NCBI RefSeq assembly: GCF_000019665.1
Contig: NC_010794.1
Span: forward strand, 1,860,001 to 1,924,000
Origin: Methylacidiphilum infernorum V4
GTDB lineage: Bacteria; Verrucomicrobiota; Verrucomicrobiia; Methylacidiphilales; Methylacidiphilaceae
Direction: 5' to 3'
Length of the DNA: 64,000 nt
The notes under the pieces were generated by a model. It was not told the origin of the DNA. It was given only the letters and a program-made list of their open reading frames with translations, and searched no databases. Each line of letters begins with the position of its first letter. Within the stretch, counting starts at the first letter, position 1. Position numbers and translations under genes: made by a program. Of the stretch, positions 4,110 to 52,411 are shown one piece after another.

Positions 4110-4230
4110 CCGCTGCGTCAGGCTTACTCGTTTTTGCCTAAACAATAGCGAAGCCTGCTCTGGTCATTAATCCCTTTGCCAGGGGATGCCTCGGCAGCGG
4201 GCTTTCCTCACCACACCAGGGAAGATTTAA
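4110..4230 (-). pseudogene. relic of a TnpB C-terminus / IS200-IS605-type right end (copy C)
   Basis: Read on the minus strand, this short block gives a degenerate TnpB tail (LPWCGEESPLPRHP... then a stop at about 4138). It ends in GAGTAAGCCTGACG. The same tail and terminal word occur in relics near 35.8 kb and 41.8 kb. The rest of the gene is gone and an in-frame stop precedes the tail. In TnpB transposons this end also encodes the omega-RNA scaffold. The block lies immediately 5' of mauB. Confidence 0.5.
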
Positions 4231-15038: not shown

Positions 15039-15671
15039 ATGGAAAGCACTATGAGCACGGGCCGGGCGGCCAAGCTGCTGGGGGTCTCGGTCAAGACCAT
15101 GCAGCGATGGGAGCGTGAAGGCCGACTAATTCCTGCGGCGCGGACCGACAGCAACCGAAGGCTTTACACCGAATCACAGCTTCGTGATTTTCTCGGCCTG
15201 CGCCATGCGGTGTCCGAGCCGACGCGGCTCATCGCGTACTGCCGCGTCTCCAGCGCCGCACAGAAGCCCGATCTTGTTAATCAGCGCAAGGTGCTGGAAG
15301 AGTTCGTGGTGGCAAAGGGACTGGCGAACGTCGAGTTCATCGAAGAGGTCGGTGGCGGACTGAACTTCAAGCGCAAGCGCTTTTTGGAACTCATGGACGC
15401 CATTGGACGGCGAGAGGTCAAAACCCTGATCCTTGCCCACCGCGACCGGCTCACCCGGTTTGGCTTCGAGTGGTTCGAGCATTTCGCCAGTAGGAATGGG
15501 TGCGAACTTCTCGTGCTCAACCTGGAGCGGCTGTCGCCCGAACAGGAAATGGTGCAGGACCTGATGACCATCGTGAATTGCTTCTCGTCCAGGCTCTACG
15601 GTTTGCGCAACTACCGAAAAAAGCTCAACGAAGCGCTGAAGCTGGACGCGACCAACGCGACACAGGTGTGA
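15039..15671 (+). CDS. tnpA: IS607 serine recombinase TnpA
   Basis: The transposase combines an N-terminal MerR-like helix-turn-helix (AAKLLGVSVKTMQRWEREG, about 10-28) with a resolvase catalytic domain beginning AYCRVSSAAQ (Ser71 or Ser72 is the nucleophile). At 210 residues it appears intact, so it could mobilise this copy and the damaged one near 51 kb. A second ATG at 15051 is a possible start. Confidence 0.92.
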   Translation: MESTMSTGRAAKLLGVSVKTMQRWEREGRLIPAARTDSNRRLYTESQLRDFLGLRHAVSEPTRLIAYCRVSSAAQKPDLVNQRKVLEEFVVAKGLANVEFIEEVGGGLNFKRKRFLELMDAIGRREVKTLILAHRDRLTRFGFEWFEHFASRNGCELLVLNLERLSPEQEMVQDLMTIVNCFSSRLYGLRNYRKKLNEALKLDATNATQV

Positions 15672-15675
15672 AGCC

Positions 15676-17010
15676 GTGCAACTGACCCACAAAATCGCCC
15701 TTCGTCCGACGCCCGAGCAGGCAGACTACTTTGCCCGCGCCTGCGGCACCGCGCGGCGCGTCTGGAACTGGGCGCTGGACGAGTGGAAGCGCCAGTATGC
15801 CGCCGGGTGTAAACCCAACGCGATGGCGCTCAAAAAGCAGTTCAACGCCATCAAGTACCGCGACCCGCAGTGGCTCGACGAGGACGGGCAGCCGTGGTTC
15901 AAGACCATCCATCGGGACGCCCACGCGCAGCCCTTTGCGTACCTGGAAAAAGCCTGGAAGCGCTACTTTGCCGACCGCAAAGCGGGCAAACCGGTGTCTG
16001 AACCGCAATTCAAGAAGAAAGGCCGCTGCCGCGACAGCTTCGCCTGAGCCAACGACAAGTTTCGGGTCAGCGGTAAGACGATTCGCCTGCCCAAAGTGGG
16101 CGAAGTCGCCATGGCCGAGGCGCTGCGCTTTGAGGGCAAGATTCTCGGCGCCACCGTCTCTCGCACGGCGGATCGCTGGTTTGTGGCGATTCAGGTCGAA
16201 GTGCCAGACCGCATATTCCATCGCCGCCGCACGGGCGATGGTGTTGTGGGCCTTGACTTTGGCGTCAAAGCAGCAGCCACCCTCTCAAGTGGCGAAGCGA
16301 TTGATGCTCCCAGACCGTTGAAAGCCGCTCTGCGCCGATTGAGAATCCGTAGCCGACGCTTAAGCCGCAAGATCGAAGCCGCCAAGGTTGCCGCCGGATT
16401 TGCTCCTCAAGCTCGTCTGCCCAAAGGCACCAAACTTCCCGTCTCCAACAACCGCAGGAAGTCTGCTGCGACATTGGCAAGGCTGCACGCCCGCGTTGCC
16501 AATGTCAGAGCGGATTTCACCCACAAGCTCACGACCCGGCTCTGCCGTAAAAACCAAGCGGTGGTGATCGAGGATTTGCACGTCAAAGGCATGTTGGCAA
16601 ACGACCGACTGGCCCGTGCCATCAGCGACGTGGGCTTGGGGATGTTTCGCGAGCAGATCGAGTACAAGGCGAGGCGCTACGGCACGCGGCTCATCATCGC
16701 CGATCGCTGGTATCCGAGCAGTCGCCTGTGTTCGGTTTGCGGGTGGAAGAACGAGGCGCTGACGCTCAAGGATCGGAGCTGGACGTGTCCCGAGTGCGGC
16801 GCGCGCCACGACCGCGACTTCAACGCGGCGCTCAACCTCAAACGGCTGGCAACCGCAACTGCCCTACCCGTGGCGAGTCCGTCTGGTAACAGCGGCGCTG
16901 CGGCAGAGATGGTCTCTGCCGTAGTCGGGAAAGTTACGCCTGTCAGAGACGATTCCGTTGAGGAATCGGGGCAGGAAGAGAACAGTGCGCACCTTTGCGC
17001 ACGTTTTTGA
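15676..17010 (+). pseudogene. tnpB: IS607 tnpB interrupted by an in-frame TGA
   Basis: TnpB is the RNA-guided RuvC nuclease ancestral to Cas12. The frame starts with GTG and runs 445 codons, with one TGA at 16045-16047 (codon 124) where copy 2 reads Tyr-Val. Downstream, all catalytic residues survive in the same frame: Asp194 (VGLDFG), Glu299 (VVIEDL) and Asp381 (DRDFNAA), plus a CxxC...CxxC zinc finger. The downstream part could restart at ATG 16111, but the N-terminal RNA/DNA-binding region would be missing. Confidence 0.85.
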
Positions 17011-35746: not shown

Positions 35747-35818
35747 AAATCCTTTTTTTTAACTTGTTCCTACACAAAAAGGGCTGCAAGAACCCCAAGA
35801 GCGGTTATCCCTGCTTCC

Positions 35819-36044
35819 TTCGTTCCGCGAGACTTACCCACTGCTGCTCAAACAGGGACAAAGCTGACTTCCTGCTTCACAGGGGGGATGCAGCCGACAC
35901 TTACACATCGAGCCAGGGCCTTCTTCTCCGCGCAGGCCTGACTTCCGGCGGAACTTGCCGTAGGGCCGTCTAGGGCGGCAGATACGGGCTAAAATATACA
36001 AGAAAGATCAACTCTTTAATCACCTGTTCAAAGCTCTTTTCATG
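35819..36044 (-). pseudogene. relic of a TnpB C-terminus / right end (copy A)
   Basis: The minus strand reads a degenerate TnpB tail ending PPVKQEVSFVPV with a stop at about 35848, close to the canonical VKQE ending of TnpB. It then ends in a GTAAGTCTCGCGGAACG version of the shared terminus. It aligns over about 225 bp with copy B at 41.8 kb, including non-coding sequence on the far side (AGAAAGATCAA...CTGTTCAAA). It is therefore a short element-like unit rather than a random gene fragment. Confidence 0.6.
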
Positions 36045-36048
36045 ACTT

Positions 36049-36107
36049 CCAGGGACTAGTCCTTGGAGTGACACTCCCAACCCCCTAAAGGGGGCGGGAA
36101 TTCCCGC
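36049..36107. repeat. cluster of four adjacent palindromes
   Basis: Within 59 bp there are CCAGGGACTAGTCCTTGG (36049-36066, one G-T pair), GGAGTGACACTCC (36065-36077), CCCCCTAAAGGGGG (36081-36094) and GCGGGAATTCCCGC (36094-36107). They nearly touch. Transcribed on either strand they would fold into a chain of hairpins. They lie downstream of the czcA stop and beside relic A. Confidence 0.75.
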
Positions 36108-36201
36108 GCCGGTCTTTTAAAAAGCAGCCCAAGGCTTTCTGCTCCCTCTACCCGGGCCCGGATGCAAGGGATGGCCCGGGGAAACCCGCTCATCCTCATT
36201 T

Positions 36202-39200
36202 TTATGGAGACGATCTCTTCCGCCACCGGTTCCAAGCCTCTTCAATCCAAAGGTAAAAAACCGGCAACACCACCAGGTCCAGCAAGGTTGAAGAGACAAT
36301 ACCTCCAATGACTACCAGGGCGAGCGGTCTTTGGACTTCCGCCCCCGGGCCATGAGCAATGGCCATGGGAACAAAACCCAAGCTTGCCACCAGTGCCGTA
36401 GCCAACACGGGTCTCAGCCGCATCAAGGCTCCTTCTTCGATCGCTTCGACGAGGGTCAATCCAGCAGAGCGGCAGCGGTTAATCGCTCCCAACAAAACAA
36501 GTCCCTCGAGGATCGCCACTCCCGAAACTGCGATAAATCCAATCCAGGCTGAAATGCTGAAAGAAAGGCCGGAAAACAAAAGGGAAAAGATCCCTCCCGT
36601 GACCGCCAGGGGAATGGAGAAACAGACGATGAAACAATGCCTGAAGTTTTTGAACAGGAAATAAAGGAGAAGAACTATCGCCAAGGCAGCCATGGGGACC
36701 ACTCCTTTTAGAGTTTCTTTAGCCTCGAGGTAATTTTTGTATTGGCCACCGATTTCGTAATAATAGCCTTTGGGGAAATGGACCTCCTTGGCTATCTTTT
36801 CGGTTGCTTCCCTAACAAAACTTTCCATGTCCCTTCGTTCCAGGTCCACAAGCAGGGCGATCCGACGCAGGCCGTTTTCCCTGGAAATAGACCTCAGCCG
36901 CTCGGCATAACGGGTAGAAGCCAGTTGAGATAAATAGAGAAGCCCGCCGGTCCCCGAACGAACGGGTAAAGAAAGCAAGGCATTTAAATTTTGCCTTTGC
37001 TGATCCGAGAACCTGACAACGATGTCAAAGCGTCGAACCCCGTTGATCAGTTGCCCCACGGTTTTCCCTCCCAAGGCCCCCGAAACCGCCCCGTTAATCT
37101 CTGCAGACTGAACATTGAACCTTGCCATGGCCAACCGGTCGGGAAGAACTTCCAGGGAAGGCGCCACCCCGGATGTCTCAAAGGCTAGACCTACAACTCC
37201 TCGAACTTTTTCCAGCAGCTTCTTTAGAGCTTCGGTCAATGAATAGATGGTCCCGTAGTCCGAGCCGAATACCTTGAAGGCCACGTCGGCTTTAACACCC
37301 TGGAGAATCTCGTTAAAGCGGTTTTCAATAGGTTGAGAAAAGATCATGGCCTGGCCGGGAACCTTCAGTTTGATTTCTTCTTCGATCAGGTCCTCGAGAT
37401 CTTCTTTAGAAAGAGCTTTGCCGTTTATCTTTCTCCATTGAGATTTAGGCTTGAGAAAAATATACAGTTCGGGCTCGTTTGGGCTTGCCGGATCGGTAGC
37501 TATATCGGCCATTCCTATCCGGGAATAAACGTAGCGGATTTCCGGGAAAGATTCGAGAAGGATCTTCTCGGTTTCTTTTTCCATGGCCACGCTGGCCTCC
37601 AAGCCGATCGTATTTTCCCTGAAAATATTGATGTCATAAGCCCCTTCGTCGAGTTTCGGAACAAAGTCCGCTCCCAAGGTAGCGAATTTCATGACGGCGA
37701 TGACAAAAAAGAGCAGGGCAGAAGAGCTGAAAAACCATCCCTTGTTCAATGTAAACCGGATAAAAGGCCGATACATTTTCTGCAGCATCCCAACCAGCCA
37801 ATCCTGCTTTCTTCTCGAGGCTTTCCCGCTTCCAAGCCCCATCACGGCAAGGACGGGAACAGCGGTAAAACTGAAAATAATCGAACCCACCATGGCAAAA
37901 ATGACCGTGAGGGCCATCGGCCTAAACGTCTTTCCGGCCACCCCGCCAAGGCTTAATATGGGAACGTAAACAAAAGTTATAATCAGCACCCCGATAAAGA
38001 CCGATGGACCTACTTCGGTAGCCGTTTCTTGAACTACCTTTTCTTTCTCCTTTCCCGCAAGAGATGGGCTAGCTTGGGATTCACCTTGAGAAAGCTTGCG
38101 CAGGATGTTTTCAACCATGATGACCGCACCATCCACGATCAATCCGAAATCTATGGCTCCAAGACTCATGAGATTGCCGGAGAGATGGCAAAGCTTCATC
38201 CCCAGGAGGGCAAAAAGGAAAGAGAGAGGAATGGTAAAAGAAACGATCAAGGCTGCCCTAAAATCGGCAAGGATAAAAAAAAGGATCACAGTGACCAGAG
38301 TGGCTCCTTCCAGGAGGTTTGAAAAAGCGGTGTGGATGACCTGGTCTGTGAATTCCGAGCGGTTGTAAAGGACTTCTATGTTCACCCCTTCGGGTAACCG
38401 GGCTTGAATCTCCCGGATTTTTTTAAAGACCCTCTGGGAAACCGTTCTGCCGTTTTCCCCGCTGCGCATGAGGATAATCCCCAGGACCGTCTCCTTGCCG
38501 TTTTTCAGGGCTGCTCCAACCCTTATCTTCGCTCCTGCTTGAACCGCCGCCACATCCTCGACAAGAACCGGCTTGACATAGCCGGGGTACTTGATCGGCA
38601 GAATCTGTATTTGACGGATCTCCTCCACCCGGCTTGCCGCCCTTACGGTCATCTGCTCACCCGCTTTTTTGACGTAAGCTCCTCCCACATTTTCCACGTT
38701 CATGCCCACGACATCGGCAAGATCTTTCAAAGTCAGTCCCAGGTTCATGAGTTTTTGCGGATCGGGCATAACGAGGATTTCTTTGTCATATCCACCCAGG
38801 GTGTTGATCTCAACAACTCCTGGAACCATCCGAAGCTGGGGAATAACCTGGTACTGCTGGATCAACTTTAATTCTACGAGTCGTTCAAACTCGCTTGGCG
38901 GCTTGCCCGGGGCATCTTCTTTCCAATCGAGGGCATAGACAAAGACCTCCCCCAGGCCCGTACTCATCGGTCCCAACCGCGGAACCAGGCCAGGGGGGAT
39001 TTTATCCAGGGCCGTCAGCAGCCTTTCGCTGGTCAACTGCCTTGCCCTGTAAACGTCAGTACCGTCCCTGAAAATGAGGGTAAGCTGAGAAATACCGAAT
39101 TTGCTCACCGAGCGCATTTCTTCCAGCCCCGGTATTCCCGAACACTCCCTTTCCAAGGGAAAGGTAACGAGCTTCTCGATCTCTTCGGGGGCATAATCTC

Positions 39201-39360
39201 GAACCGGGGTCATAACCTGGACTTGAACACTGGAAATGTCGGGGACAACATCGATGGAAAGATGGAAGGCGGTATAAAGGGCTGCCCCAAGATAAAAAAA
39301 CAAGCCAAGAAAAACAACCGGCTTGTTTTTTAACAGGATTGCAATGAATCGTTCAAGCAT
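36202..39360 (-). CDS. czcA: heavy-metal efflux RND pump (CzcA type)
   Basis: This inner-membrane RND proton antiporter of the HME family expels divalent metal ions. The TM4 charge relay IDFGLIVDGAVIMVEN is of the Zn/Co/Cd (CzcA) rather than the Cu (CusA) kind. Other hallmarks are PDISSVQVQVMTP near the N-terminus and GPGAEVQRPLA near the C-terminus. ATG 39360 gives the normal MLERF start and about 1,052 residues; the frame could also begin at TTG 39378. The membrane-fusion (CzcB) and outer-membrane (CzcC) genes are not adjacent. Confidence 0.9.
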   Translation of the reverse strand: MLERFIAILLKNKPVVFLGLFFYLGAALYTAFHLSIDVVPDISSVQVQVMTPVRDYAPEEIEKLVTFPLERECSGIPGLEEMRSVSKFGISQLTLIFRDGTDVYRARQLTSERLLTALDKIPPGLVPRLGPMSTGLGEVFVYALDWKEDAPGKPPSEFERLVELKLIQQYQVIPQLRMVPGVVEINTLGGYDKEILVMPDPQKLMNLGLTLKDLADVVGMNVENVGGAYVKKAGEQMTVRAASRVEEIRQIQILPIKYPGYVKPVLVEDVAAVQAGAKIRVGAALKNGKETVLGIILMRSGENGRTVSQRVFKKIREIQARLPEGVNIEVLYNRSEFTDQVIHTAFSNLLEGATLVTVILFFILADFRAALIVSFTIPLSFLFALLGMKLCHLSGNLMSLGAIDFGLIVDGAVIMVENILRKLSQGESQASPSLAGKEKEKVVQETATEVGPSVFIGVLIITFVYVPILSLGGVAGKTFRPMALTVIFAMVGSIIFSFTAVPVLAVMGLGSGKASRRKQDWLVGMLQKMYRPFIRFTLNKGWFFSSSALLFFVIAVMKFATLGADFVPKLDEGAYDINIFRENTIGLEASVAMEKETEKILLESFPEIRYVYSRIGMADIATDPASPNEPELYIFLKPKSQWRKINGKALSKEDLEDLIEEEIKLKVPGQAMIFSQPIENRFNEILQGVKADVAFKVFGSDYGTIYSLTEALKKLLEKVRGVVGLAFETSGVAPSLEVLPDRLAMARFNVQSAEINGAVSGALGGKTVGQLINGVRRFDIVVRFSDQQRQNLNALLSLPVRSGTGGLLYLSQLASTRYAERLRSISRENGLRRIALLVDLERRDMESFVREATEKIAKEVHFPKGYYYEIGGQYKNYLEAKETLKGVVPMAALAIVLLLYFLFKNFRHCFIVCFSIPLAVTGGIFSLLFSGLSFSISAWIGFIAVSGVAILEGLVLLGAINRCRSAGLTLVEAIEEGALMRLRPVLATALVASLGFVPMAIAHGPGAEVQRPLALVVIGGIVSSTLLDLVVLPVFYLWIEEAWNRWRKRSSP

Positions 39361-39378
39361 GCTCGAAGAAGAGGACAA

Positions 39379-39727
39379 AAATGTTTTTTCCCCTAACCCC
39401 AGGTAAGCCTATCCAACGGCGAAGTAAACAAAAAAAATTTCTTCTCCTCCTTCTCCTAAGCGACCCAAACCGAAGGCCTTTTTCATCATCGGCATAGCAT
39501 ACAGGCCTTTTGACTTATCCGCATAAAAAACGGCTTTTCTTTCGGCCGATCCCGGCCAAGACCATGGATGGCTCAAAAATTTCAAAAGCTTTGCTTGCTT
39601 TTTTCCCTCAAAAAAATTATTGTTGGCTAGTTAAGAGAGGGGGGAGGAACAGAAGATAAAACCTTGGATACCATTAAACCGGAAGCTCGGGTAGGCAGGC
39701 TTTAAGTTTTTTGATTTTTATCTTCTT
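39379..39727. other. intergenic region between czcA and a membrane-protein gene
   Basis: This holds the divergent starts of czcA and the membrane protein at 39728. Apart from the 58-residue minus-strand frame described separately, I see no gene or clear operator. Confidence 0.4.
39409..39585 (-). CDS. possible 58-residue ORF upstream of czcA
   Basis: An open minus-strand frame runs from a TAA at 39631 to a TAG at 39409. From TTG 39585 it would encode 58 residues with a protein-like composition (AERKAVFYADKSKGLYAMP ... EEIFFVYFAVG). It ends 49 bp before the czcA ATG. No family is recognised, and the only early starts are TTG. It could be a real small gene, a remnant of a lost partner gene, or chance. 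Confidence 0.3.
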   Translation of the reverse strand: MKFLSHPWSWPGSAERKAVFYADKSKGLYAMPMMKKAFGLGRLGEGGEEIFFVYFAVG

Positions 39728-41164
39728 ATGCACAACCGCGAAAAGAACAACTCTCTTTCTTTCCAACTTTTCAAGTTCCTTTTCTTCCTTTACGTTTCCT
39801 GGTTTTTCCCCTGTGAGCTGTTAACTGTCCGCAAAATGGGCAAAGATTATGCCAATCCAAAACGCTTTCTCGTTTCGTTGACTCTCCTTTTGATCTTGAG
39901 CTGGATCAATAAAACCGCTGACCATAAGAACATAGGCATAATGCTTATATTCTGCGGACTGCTTAGCCTTATCTATCTTTTTGAAGCCCTCGTTCTCTAT
40001 TACGAAGAAGAAAAGAAAAAGATCTTGAGAAATCCTCTTTCCTGGGGAATTCCCCGTTTTGGGTTCCCTGGAAACGAATGGTTCTGGTATCTCTTCCAAC
40101 CTTTAATGATCCTCCTTTTTTCTCTTCTCTCTTCCCTTTTTTGCCCCACCTTATTCTTTTATTTTTTAGTTTCGGCCGTTTTCCTTTGGATCTTTCGTTT
40201 CCTTTCCTTCCGCTTTTATAAAGAGGCAGAAACCGAGCCCCCTTGGACCGACGATTTTCCTTCTGAAGAAGAAGAGGAGGAGGAAGTTATGCCTGGATCC
40301 ACCGAGATTATCCAGGGAACCGAAGGCAGTACCCCTTTAAAGCTGAGGAAACTCAACCCACAGTTCGTATCCCTTGCAATCATCGGTCTTTTGGCTTCCT
40401 GCTCTCTTATTTTCTACGAGAAAGCCTTTTTCTTTTCCCGAATACCCCTTCAGGATTCTCTTGCGAGGGTTTTAGCCCGGGAAGAAGAAAAACTTTCCTC
40501 TTCCATGCCCGAGGGATGGACGTTTAAGACCGCGTTGAGCAAAGAGGAAGATTACTTTACCCTCAGCCACCTCCAAGAGAAATACCACGCTCAGCCCCCT
40601 TCATTCCTCCAACAACTCTGGACTTACTGGAAAGAGCAGAAAGCCGAAGTCGTCAGCGGCCGCTTTTATCCAAAAGCCATAAAACCCTTGTGGGCTCCTT
40701 TCGCAGGAATAATGATCCAATGGGTCCCCGTGGAAGAAAAACAGGACCAAGGTCCCGATACCGAGCTATGGACTTACCTGGAAACTCCCTCATCCCTCTA
40801 CAACAAGCTCTCCCCATTATTTCCAGCTCAAGCTGCCCCGGTTGTTACTTTTGGCAAGGAACTTAAAGCTTACCTTTTCGACGTCACCCCGGTAGGGGCT
40901 AAAACCGTGTTCCATGCGGTCATCCCCTTTTCTTTTACCCTTAATATAGCCGGATGTCCCGTTTCCCAAACCCTTCCAGACTATTACGCTCAAAACGAAT
41001 ACCAACTCCAAGGGCAAAAGATCAAGGCATTGATCATCCAAAGACAACGCGAGCTTTTAGCCGAACTTAAAACGGCTCCCCTGACCAAGGAAAAACTGGA
41101 AGAAATCAAAAAAGAAGCCGCCCTACTGAAAACCAAGCTCGCCGAAATCGAGGGAAAAAGATAA
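39728..41164 (+). CDS. membrane protein of unknown function
   Basis: The 478 residues begin with about four hydrophobic helices (about 12-30, 45-60, 70-90, 115-160). A very acidic linker (EEEEEEEV near 187), one more helix (about 215-235), a large non-cytoplasmic domain (240-430) and a terminal helix follow. The layout, with a membrane bundle, acidic loop and external domain, could suit an envelope assembly factor. I recognise no family. The next gene follows after 9 bp and encodes a secreted protein, so the two probably work together. Confidence 0.6.
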   Translation: MHNREKNNSLSFQLFKFLFFLYVSWFFPCELLTVRKMGKDYANPKRFLVSLTLLLILSWINKTADHKNIGIMLIFCGLLSLIYLFEALVLYYEEEKKKILRNPLSWGIPRFGFPGNEWFWYLFQPLMILLFSLLSSLFCPTLFFYFLVSAVFLWIFRFLSFRFYKEAETEPPWTDDFPSEEEEEEEVMPGSTEIIQGTEGSTPLKLRKLNPQFVSLAIIGLLASCSLIFYEKAFFFSRIPLQDSLARVLAREEEKLSSSMPEGWTFKTALSKEEDYFTLSHLQEKYHAQPPSFLQQLWTYWKEQKAEVVSGRFYPKAIKPLWAPFAGIMIQWVPVEEKQDQGPDTELWTYLETPSSLYNKLSPLFPAQAAPVVTFGKELKAYLFDVTPVGAKTVFHAVIPFSFTLNIAGCPVSQTLPDYYAQNEYQLQGQKIKALIIQRQRELLAELKTAPLTKEKLEEIKKEAALLKTKLAEIEGKR

Positions 41165-41173
41165 AGTCTTCTT

Positions 41174-41755
41174 ATGAGAAAAACGGCTTGGCTCATCAGC
41201 TGCTTATTGTTTATTGGATTATTTGCACAGGCCCAGACCCCGGAATCCGAAGAGCTGGACAAAGCCATCGAACAGGCTCAAAAGCAATTGGAAAAACAAC
41301 AAGGGGCAACCCCCACGGATAGGCAAACGGAAAATAGGAGCCAATCCTCTGGCCCCGAGTATTCTCCCAAACAAGGACGGCTGGTCTCGGCGCAGGATTT
41401 TGCCGGTTACATCAAAAAACACAAAGCTCAGCATCTTTGGGTATACGGTCATTTCAAGGTCATCCAGGTCAAAAAAAATAGGCAGCTTGTCGCCAAGCCC
41501 GTTATCAAGGGTTTCATTCCTCTCATCAGTTCGATCGCTTTACCCAAGACCCATTTTGTTTTTTTAAACCCTCAAAACTTGAAAAACTTTGGCCGTCTCT
41601 CCCCGGGGGATAGTTTTTATATTTCCCCAAGGCATCCCGCCCTGGTTATCCGGATAATTTCTAAAAATAAAATGGAAACCTTGGCCAAGGCCCTATTAAG
41701 CAGCCAGCCTAAAAACCACCTGCTTAGTTCAAAATCCCCTCCCCTTTCTGATTAA
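41174..41755 (+). CDS. secreted protein of unknown function
   Basis: A signal peptide (1-21, ending AQAQ) precedes a Gln/Glu-rich helix and a globular part (about 70-170) with VSAQDFAGYIKKHKAQHLWVY and predicted beta strands. The family is unknown. The 9-bp spacing from the upstream membrane-protein gene indicates an operon. Confidence 0.6.
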   Translation: MRKTAWLISCLLFIGLFAQAQTPESEELDKAIEQAQKQLEKQQGATPTDRQTENRSQSSGPEYSPKQGRLVSAQDFAGYIKKHKAQHLWVYGHFKVIQVKKNRQLVAKPVIKGFIPLISSIALPKTHFVFLNPQNLKNFGRLSPGDSFYISPRHPALVIRIISKNKMETLAKALLSSQPKNHLLSSKSPPLSD

Positions 41756-41762
41756 CTTTTCT

Positions 41763-41984
41763 TCCGTTCCGTCAGGCTTACTCACTGCTGCTCAAACAGG
41801 GGCAAAGCTGACAGGCTTACTCATTAAGGCTGGATGCGGCTGGCGCGTGAGTGCCAGGCCAGAGCCTTCCTCTCCACAGGCCTGCCTTCCGGCGGAACTC
41901 GCCGTAGAGCCGTTCAAGACGGCCAACATGAAGAAAGATTGAAAAAGGTCAAATAATGAATCAACTGTTCAAACCCCTTTCAAG
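41763..41984 (-). pseudogene. relic of a TnpB C-terminus / right end (copy B)
   Basis: The minus strand reads a TnpB-like tail (ACGEEGSGLALTRQPHPAL, then MSKPVSFAPV and a stop at about 41792). It closes with GAGTAAGCCTGACGGAACGG. A second GAGTAAGCCTG lies about 40 bp upstream of the terminal one. Copy A matches over the whole length and copy C over the last 120 bp. No other part of the transposon remains. Confidence 0.6.
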
Positions 41985-50496: not shown

Positions 50497-50529
50497 TTTT
50501 ATCCCCCGCTCAACCCCCGTTTGCTGCTA

Positions 50530-51870
50530 TCAAGAAAGTGTGCAAACATGCGCACTTTCCTTTCCTGCCCCGACGCGTCTTGCTGACCGATTCGTAGCTG
50601 ACAGGCCTGCCTTTCCCGACTCCGACAGGGACCGTCCCTGTCGTAGTGCCGTCGTTGCCGGTCGGACTCGCCACATGTAGGGTAGTTGCGGCTGCCAGCC
50701 GTTTGAGATTGATCGCCGCGTTCACATCATGGTCATGGGGCGTACCGCACTCGGGGCACGTCCACTCCCGATCCTTGAGCGCGAGCACTTCGTTCTTCCA
50801 GCCACAGACCGCGCACAACCGGCTTCTCGGATAACAGCGGTCTGCGATTGCCCTGCCTTGTTCCGCAGCGCCTGGCCTTGTACTCGATCTGCGATCGGAA
50901 CATTCTAAAGCCCACGAAGCTTGTGGCGCGGGCCAGTCGGTCGTTTGCCAACATGCCTTTGACGTGCAGATCCTCGAGTACCACCGCTTGGTTTTCGCGG
51001 CAGAGCCGGGTCGTGAGCTTGTGGGTGAAATCCGCTCTGACATTGGCAACGCGGGCGTGCAGCCTTGCCAATGTCGCAGCAGACTTCCTGCGGTTGTTGG
51101 AGACGGGAAGTTTGGTGCCTTTGGGCAGACGAGCTTGAGGAGCAAATCCGGCGGCAACCTTGGCGGCTTCGATCTTGCGGCTTAAGCGTCGGCTACGGAT
51201 TCTCAATCGGCGCAGAGCGGCTTTCAACGGTCTGGGAGCATCAATCGCTTCGCCACTTGAGAGGGTGGCTGCTGCTTTGACGCCAAAGTCAAGGCCCACA
51301 ACACCATCGCCCGTGCGGCGGCGATGGAATATGCGGTCTGGCACTTCGACCTGAATCGCCACAAACCAGCGATCCGCCGTGCGAGAGACGGTGGCGCCGA
51401 GAATCTTGCCCTCAAAGCGCAGCGCCTCGGCCATGGCGACTTCGCCCACTTTGGGCAGGAGAATCGTCTTACCGCTGACCCGAAACTTGTCGTTGGCCAC
51501 ATAGAAGCTGTCGCGGCAGCGGCCCTTCTTTTTGAACTGCAGTTCGCGTGCTGGTTTGCCAGCTTTGATGTCGGCGAAGAAGCGCTTCCATGCCTTTTCG
51601 AGGCGCGCAAAGGGCCGGGGATGGGCATCCCGATGGATGGCCTTGAGCCAGGGTTTGCCGTTCTCATCGAGCCACTGCGGGTCGTTGTACTTGATGGCGT
51701 CCAACTGTTTTTTAAGCGCCATCGCGTTTGGTTTCTTGCCCTGGGCGTACTGCTTGTTCCACTCGTACAGCGCTTGGGTTCCAGACACGCCTGGCTGTAC
51801 AACAGGAGGGCTTGAAGTAGTCCACCCGCTCAGGCATTGGGCAGAGGGCGATTTTGTGGGTCAGTTGCAT
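50530..51870 (-). pseudogene. tnpB: IS607 tnpB, frameshifted
   Basis: From ATG 51870 the frame gives the TnpB start (MQLTHKIAL). It shifts near 51780, where CCCA replaces a three-base codon after VWN. The main frame (51788-50733) carries RuvC Asp and Glu motifs ([19 protein letters not shown]). A second shift near 50870 moves the zinc finger (CAVCGWKN...CPECG) and final Asp motif (HDHDVNAA) to another frame. No functional protein is expected. At the codon-124 site it reads Tyr-Val, unlike the TGA of copy 1. Confidence 0.85.
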
Positions 51871-51873
51871 CGC

Positions 51874-52077
51874 TTAGTCGTATTGCTCTTCCGTCGATCG
51901 CCAAACGACCTCGCCTGTTTCCACGCAGATGACACGCACCTCTTGCTCTTCCGGATCGTCCACGCCTTCGATTGCTGTCGCTATGGCAATAGAAATGCTG
52001 TCGTAATGCTGAGTAAATACGTGCGCCGGCAACCAATCGCTGGTTAACACAAAGTCAGATTCAATCCGATAGGTCAT
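51874..52077 (-). CDS. small passenger ORF between tnpA and tnpB
   Basis: The 67-residue acidic protein begins MTYRIESDFVLTSDWLPAHV, overlaps the end of tnpA by 17 bp, and stops 3 bp before the tnpB ATG. The spacing makes tnpA-ORF-tnpB look like one translationally coupled unit. Copy 1 has no counterpart; there the two genes are 4 bp apart. Unlike its neighbours it has no stop or frameshift. The second half (VRVICVETGEVVWRSTEEQ) looks like a beta hairpin. The function is unknown. Confidence 0.55.
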   Translation of the reverse strand: MTYRIESDFVLTSDWLPAHVFTQHYDSISIAIATAIEGVDDPEEQEVRVICVETGEVVWRSTEEQYD

Positions 52078-52411
52078 GTTCTACATCCTTCTTCAACGCT
52101 TCATCCAGCTTCTTTCGGTAGTTCCTCAACCCCTTCGCAACAACGTACTCTTCCACAAACTTGCGTTGATTGGCGAGGTCTTGCTTCTGCGCGGCACTGG
52201 ATACGCGGCAGTAGGCGACGAATCGCGTCGGATGGGATGCCGTATTTCGCAGTCCGATGAACTCGCGGGTCTGCTCCTCGGTGTAGAGTCGCCGATTGGT
52301 GGCCGAGCACACCGCAGGAATCAACCTTCACTCCTGCTCCCACCGCTGCACCGTCTTGACCGTTACGCCCAGCAGCTTCGCCGCCTTGCCGGTACCCATC
52401 GTGCTTTCCAT
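52061..52411 (-). pseudogene. tnpA: IS607 tnpA remnant
   Basis: From ATG 52411 the helix-turn-helix is intact (AAKLLGVTVKTVQRWEQE), then a TGA replaces the Gly codon of copy 1. The same frame resumes with RRLYTEEQTREFIGLRN and the catalytic CRVSSAAQ. It then jumps in frame from VVAKG straight to LRNYRKKLDEAL, missing about 88 residues of the recombinase core. It cannot encode an active transposase. Confidence 0.85.

Follow-up and report, generated by a model that had tools for sequence, protein, structure and literature searches.

Altae-Tran and co-workers are said to have reported, in 2021, standalone omega-RNAs for IscB in Ktedonobacter racemifer. ISXfa1 of Xylella fastidiosa, an IS607 element, uses GGG as its target-adjacent motif (TAM), and in its omega-RNA a pseudoknot between a loop and the 3′ end has been shown to matter; IS607 transposes as double-stranded DNA (PMC10711439). 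Other IS607 TnpBs, with RAGATH-18-derived RNAs, have the TAMs AGGAG and GAGGG (PMC11061315). A PATE-like element (PATE, palindrome-associated transposable element) of Halanaerobium, present as a single 271-nt copy, has retained 58 nt of tnpB together with a right end of 160 nt (PMC7290912).

The short repeats described here, from Methylacidiphilum infernorum V4, are very probably non-autonomous IS607 elements carrying a complete omega-RNA. The window, that is, the whole 64,000-nucleotide stretch that was analyzed, comprises bases 1860001-1924000 of a single-contig chromosome (2,287,145 bp, 2.29 Mb). In the window, the original prediction had marked three blocks as dispersed relics of TnpB 3′ tails with a common terminal sequence and had placed them in the IS200/IS605 group. 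Two of these, block A (35819-36044) and block C (41763-41984), both on the minus strand, are homologous to one another from end to end (72% identity, E 5e-26 within the window); block A also terminates in VKQEVSFVPV-stop, as claimed. Both are true members of a family that in fact comprises about 20 complete copies plus partials, and they share the 3′ end GAGTAAG-(C/T)CT...GGAAC. The third, block T (4110-4230), matches well over its last 20 bp only, where 18 of 20 positions are identical to the other copies. The window features are listed below, the borders of copies A and C being those fixed by a multiple alignment that included the flanks.

41764..41976, minus strand: copy C, interpreted as a complete non-autonomous IS607 element, 213 bp, running from its left end at 41976 to its right end at 41764, from the 19-copy alignment
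41960..41976, minus strand: left-end terminus of copy C, GGGTTTGAACAGTTGAT, common to autonomous IS607 elements; GG is the crossover dinucleotide
41764..41926, minus strand: predicted omega-RNA scaffold of copy C, positions 1-162 of covariance model R1 (189.5 bits); P1, P2 and pseudoknot strands all intact
41744..41763, minus strand: predicted 20-nt guide of copy C, host flank AAGAAAAGTTAATCAGAAAG, positioned by reference to ISXfa1 (PMC10711439)
35820..36035, minus strand: copy A, interpreted as a complete non-autonomous IS607 element, 216 bp, running from its left end at 36035 to its right end at 35820
35820..35982, minus strand: predicted omega-RNA scaffold of copy A, 155.8 bits with R1; pseudoknot GTTCC/GGAAC intact, TnpB C-terminal remnant retained
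35800..35819, minus strand: predicted 20-nt guide of copy A, AGGAAGCAGGGATAACCGCT
4110..4170, minus strand: block T, probably an isolated, decayed right-end remnant; last 20 bp alone align well

The repeat family and its parent element

In the chromosome, blocks A and C each match 26-27 additional places. Nineteen copies are complete, each 208-228 bp long, and a 20th (1614515-1614745), with a variant left end, extends the range to 208-231 bp. Aligned, the complete copies have sharp borders, reading GG-GTTTGAACAGTTGAT... at the 5′ side and ...GTAAGTCTGACGGAAC-GG at the 3′ side, at which similarity stops; the flanks of the 19 copies are unrelated. Because copy-to-copy identity within the family is 68-92%, the family is not the product of a recent burst.

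An intact autonomous IS607 element with the same left and right ends is located at approximately 2197086-2198999 of the genome and encodes a serine-recombinase TnpA plus a TnpB. The TnpA, an intact 214-aa ORF that scores 216.5 bits with NF033518 (cut-off 110), is an IS607 serine recombinase with the MerR-type HTH characteristic of this group, and the TnpB is an RNA-guided TnpB according to NF040570 (311 bits), with RuvC and zinc-ribbon motifs that appear intact by eye. The statement that no matching full element is present is correct for the window and not for the chromosome. The assignment to IS200/IS605, for which a Y1 (HUH) transposase would be the expected partner, is wrong, since the intact element delimited by these ends encodes an IS607 serine recombinase. 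Copies consisting of tnpB only occur at 1773816 (intact) and 1400878 (broken), and relatives of the parent TnpB are common in Proteobacteria, several of them sharing this left end.

Two IS607 elements also lie inside the window but belong to a different subfamily, with a TnpA that is 40% identical. In the one at 15039-17010 tnpA is intact and tnpB is frameshifted; the one at 50510-52324 is decayed. Seven mini-elements of this second subfamily (G000:C1 50577-50903, 347632-347958, 575305-575631, 614131-614454, 1062727-1063026, 1432856-1433182 and 1838958-1839284) have an open frame of 164-170 codons, free of internal stops, encoding a fusion of the helix-turn-helix of TnpA with the zinc ribbon of TnpB. 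These are possibly a second, protein-coding class of miniature.

Outside this chromosome, three homologous short elements (hereafter solos) are found in G007, which belongs to the same family but to another genus (C1 1369853, 1551778 and 1840351). A stringent pattern search of 62 genomes of the order returned solos in the present genome (G000) and G007 only, and the same pattern applied to a 387-genome phylum sample, in which G007 is not listed, returned them in G000 only. The other phylum matches, together with 15 in viral contigs, appear to be chance hits, the highest R1 score among them being 13 bits, and matches inspected in G001-G003 were rejected as solos, being tails of tnpB remnants.

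Block T is single-copy, with no DNA-level match elsewhere in the chromosome, and its standing as an equivalent third copy is not supported. Outside the last 20 bp, the rest of the block has only a slight advantage over shuffles in alignment (48/1000), but with the RNA model the block reaches 28 bits (genome-wide E 8e-8), so that it is probably the decayed right end of such an element. Other relics are scattered through the chromosome. A divergent second set of three solo-like elements (G000:C1 26429-26583, 1240196-1240342 and 2176399-2176564) consists of a left end, ~50 bp and an omega-RNA tail, and its members align with one another well above shuffles. Decayed composites of a TnpA N-terminal and a TnpB C-terminal part, with an omega-RNA tail, reside at G000:C1 80651, 1130895, 1350783 and 1715274. 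A dispersed repeat, 91-92% identical among its copies and containing the hairpin CCCGCCC-TTTA-GGGCGGG (G000:C1 1725980-1726095, 1116703-1116818 and ~1396910-1397026), directly adjoins solo L058 on its right, is also present in the relative G001, and looks like the right end of a different TnpB family.

Anatomy and insertion sites of the solos

The short element corresponds to the parent's left end (~60 bp) joined to the parent's last ~160 bp. Positions 1-17 of the left end have a mean pairwise identity of 93% among copies, and the left ends of miniature and full elements align gaplessly over ~55 nt. Segment 18-62 likewise aligns without gaps to the tnpA leader of full elements, and in it the miniature's TTGATC-17-TACATT occupies the place of TTGCTA-17-TATATT, which in the full element L216 lies just before tnpA. 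In its position and partial consensus this segment is promoter-like in most copies, the 17-nt spacing being kept in 13 of 19 and broken in six, both window copies included. A sigma-70 scan of two copies found no promoter in copy C nor within the element of L052. The third part, the ~160-bp tail, is composed of the end of tnpB plus the right end. The junction coincides with the 5′ limit of the RNA fold. The solos are not MITEs in the strict sense, having neither a terminal inverted repeat nor a duplication beyond GG, and they are not PATEs, given their IS607 partner and the internal location of their conserved hairpins (P2 is ~85 bp from the left end and ~125 bp from the right end).

GG is present at both ends of 16 of the 19 copies, with no longer target duplication, as is typical of IS607. 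Copy A, in which the crossover dinucleotides are now AG and GA, is on that account probably immobile. In 17 of 19 copies a purine precedes the GG (p 0.0015), and C never stands there (p 0.008), a preference that fits the GGG motif of ISXfa1. The right border reads CGG, and hence the empty site is a predicted target whereas the occupied site is not.

Occupied and empty sites can be compared for three copies (L012, L056 and L057), which are absent from relatives in which the orthologous regions run uninterrupted across the insertion point. At the empty point a single GG is present for L057 (in G002); for L012 it is displaced by 1 bp, and for L056 none is seen. The left ends of L012 (genome 989764-989989) and L076 (2197086) fall where a gene ends and provide that gene's stop codon, and the gene ended by L012 looks, by eye, like mnmA.

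The omega-RNA fold and its constraint

The element tail is described by R1, a covariance model with stems P1, P2, P3 and P4, which matches 95 places across 96 loci, nearly all directly after the TnpB zinc ribbon, and thereby the 3′ tails of ~90 TnpB loci. In these mostly full-length loci, 98% of P2 cells are paired and there are many double changes, with C-G/G-C at 41/41 and U-A/C-G at 63/22. The whole-structure covariation score of the R1-matched loci is 0.309, compared with 0.168 for shuffled and at most 0.121 for slid structures, in an alignment that was fitted to the model and is hence biased toward it. A predicted RNA of ~150 nt with covarying stems, as is characteristic of omega-RNAs or reRNAs, thus lies at the 3′ end of tnpB. 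In addition, the GTTC of the P2 loop complements a 3′ GAAC just before the final GG (94% of cells paired), giving a predicted pseudoknot whose strands are nearly invariant, so that covariation lends it little support.

Among the solos the same fold is less well kept. The 19 copies alone give a covariation score of 0.103 versus 0.088 for shuffled alignments, 24 of 500 of which reach 0.103, and 14% of their P2 cells are unpaired, as opposed to 2% in full elements; many copies consequently look decayed. By arm-swap energies, covariation of P1 is confined to the comparison of solos with full elements, that of P2 is found within solos and that of P4 is marginal, P1 being GCCGT/ACGGC in solos and GAGCGC/GCGCTC at the same place in the resident full element. 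The fold is therefore proven by the TnpB family and not by the solos themselves. A long-range helix between left and right ends, proposed by RNAalifold for the whole element, was dropped, as the tail is better accounted for by the R1 structure together with the pseudoknot known from the literature. At the Rfam gathering threshold the window yielded two tRNAs only, and no guide-RNA family of the RAGATH-18 kind reached threshold.

Substitutions common to at least two solos are depleted in the block formed by P2 and the core, ~100 bp from either element end (34 of 416, versus 22% expected; p 4e-14). Those private to one copy are evenly spread (27 of 121 in the core, against the same 22%), and so there is no detectable selection on individual insertions. 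We read this as lineages that were probably constrained in the RNA core while spreading, each insertion drifting later, on the assumption that shared changes mark older branches and with recombination as a caveat. The three G007 solos (L104, L124 and L115) are mosaic, with a 5′ half that is 81-83% identical to solos of G000 and 38-43% identical to G007's own full elements, and a 3′ half that is 91-97% identical to the latter, which suggests recombination or co-adaptation of the right end. In a tree of tail sequences, resident full elements fall among the solos, and L057 groups with these full elements; a single solo clade is marginally rejected (AU p 0.049) because of this 3′-half recombination.

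Proposed behavior, alternatives and known systems

These features could be explained by an internal deletion that removed tnpA and nearly all of tnpB, joining the left end to the omega-RNA and right end; with the left end would have come the site for TnpA and also, in the majority of copies, the promoter-like segment. The shared ends would be recognized by an IS607 serine recombinase that another locus of the chromosome supplies; these ends together with the GG borders suggest that the miniatures moved between GG dinucleotides. Mobilization by TnpA in trans is, on the same sequence features, likely. Each copy would then be a short omega-RNA gene whose last ~16-20 nt, the guide, are flanking host DNA. 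Beyond this point we infer transcription, TnpB binding, guided cutting and retention: TnpB from resident IS607 copies would load the solo RNA in trans and cleave the insertion site in its empty state, where the guide sequence comes directly after a purine-GG, and repair from an element-bearing copy would restore the element at the cut site. Function of the omega-RNA in trans is about an even prospect for the family as a whole, and is rated lower for the two window copies because the promoter spacing is damaged in both. Taken as a whole, the reading in which TnpA moves IS607 miniatures whose standalone omega-RNA is usable by TnpB in trans is the one toward which we lean slightly. That each solo is a self-standing mobile guide-RNA gene, consisting only of promoter and omega-RNA, served by TnpA and TnpB in trans, retaining itself at ~20 loci and acquiring a new guide with each insertion, is put forward tentatively, as somewhat short of probable.

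The main rival holds that the solos are plain non-autonomous IS607 elements, MITE-like hitchhikers moved by TnpA in trans and lacking a working guide RNA, in which the omega-RNA was kept through overlap with a long right end or renewed by recombination with tnpB. Though doubtful, this is a serious contender, and it would accommodate the drift of individual copies without visible selection on the RNA, and the resemblance of the G007 solos to the resident full element in the 3′ half as opposed to the 5′ half, which is recombination of this region. The broken promoter spacing in six of the 19 copies and the null scan in two count against the favored reading. The rival sits less easily with the position of P2 and the core, the internal block under the strongest constraint, which is ~100 bp away from both ends and has retained a pseudoknot of the RNA type, and with the promoter-like segment found in most copies. 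Moreover, as IS607 moves as double-stranded DNA, hairpins are unneeded for its transposition, unlike that of IS200/IS605.

Two other explanations concern the origin of the short form. Repeated internal deletions of different IS607 copies, in place of spread of the short form, would agree with the marginal rejection of one solo clade and with the full elements found among the solos, but recombination mosaicism accounts for the tree, and the copies share a left-end sequence (18-62) that occurs in no full element of the genome; this origin is very unlikely. Still more improbable for the family is random decay of full IS607 copies leaving right ends by chance. Block T and several partial tails have this look, whereas 19 copies have their two borders in common and are all joined at one point, ~60 bp in from the left end. 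The original prediction, that the blocks are non-autonomous elements or solo omega-RNA units and not products of random decay, is thus supported for A and C, given the fixed borders of 19 copies, their unrelated flanks, the lack of the element at orthologous sites, the homologues in a second genus and the fold shared with ~90 TnpB loci; for T it is not supported. Two of the outcomes named beforehand as refuting it, a lack of further copies and of conserved structure, were not observed. Decay is refuted for A and C, and stands for T.

If the copies do make RNA under the favored reading of TnpA-moved miniatures, ~20 extra guides, which the RNA gene would have spread by transposing itself, would serve a small number of TnpB proteins, and multiplication of guide RNAs in trans could arise without CRISPR. 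The solos would then separate the two supposed roles of TnpB elements, namely moving and enforcing retention. This chromosome, with one intact autonomous element and ~20 dependent copies, would also put to a natural test the idea that a TnpB retention system is open to exploitation by an RNA-only parasite. A literature search that covered few subscription journals found no paper describing solo omega-RNAs of IS607/TnpB.

Like the omega-RNAs of IscB reportedly found in K. racemifer, the solos are scaffolds away from the nuclease gene, which suggests action in trans; in that case, however, the nuclease is of another family, and here the solo RNA resides inside its own mobile element with defined ends. 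PATEs (PMC3119063) are likewise short, transposase-free and retain the ends of a TnpB-type transposon, but derive from IS200/IS605, with its Y1 transposase and terminal palindromes, and were not analyzed as guide-RNA units, whereas the solos are IS607, multicopy and tested for an RNA fold. The RAGATH-18 systems share an IS607 TnpB, a right-end guide RNA and a G-rich TAM beside the left end, and unlike the solos are full TnpB loci (PMC11061315). The resemblance to ISXfa1 extends to the serine-recombinase partner, GG crossover, G-rich target-adjacent motif and ~150-nt right-end omega-RNA with stem-loops and a loop-to-3′-end pseudoknot (PMC10711439); unlike ISXfa1, the solos lack tnpA and tnpB, consist of a left end and the omega-RNA/right end only, and are present in ~20 copies.
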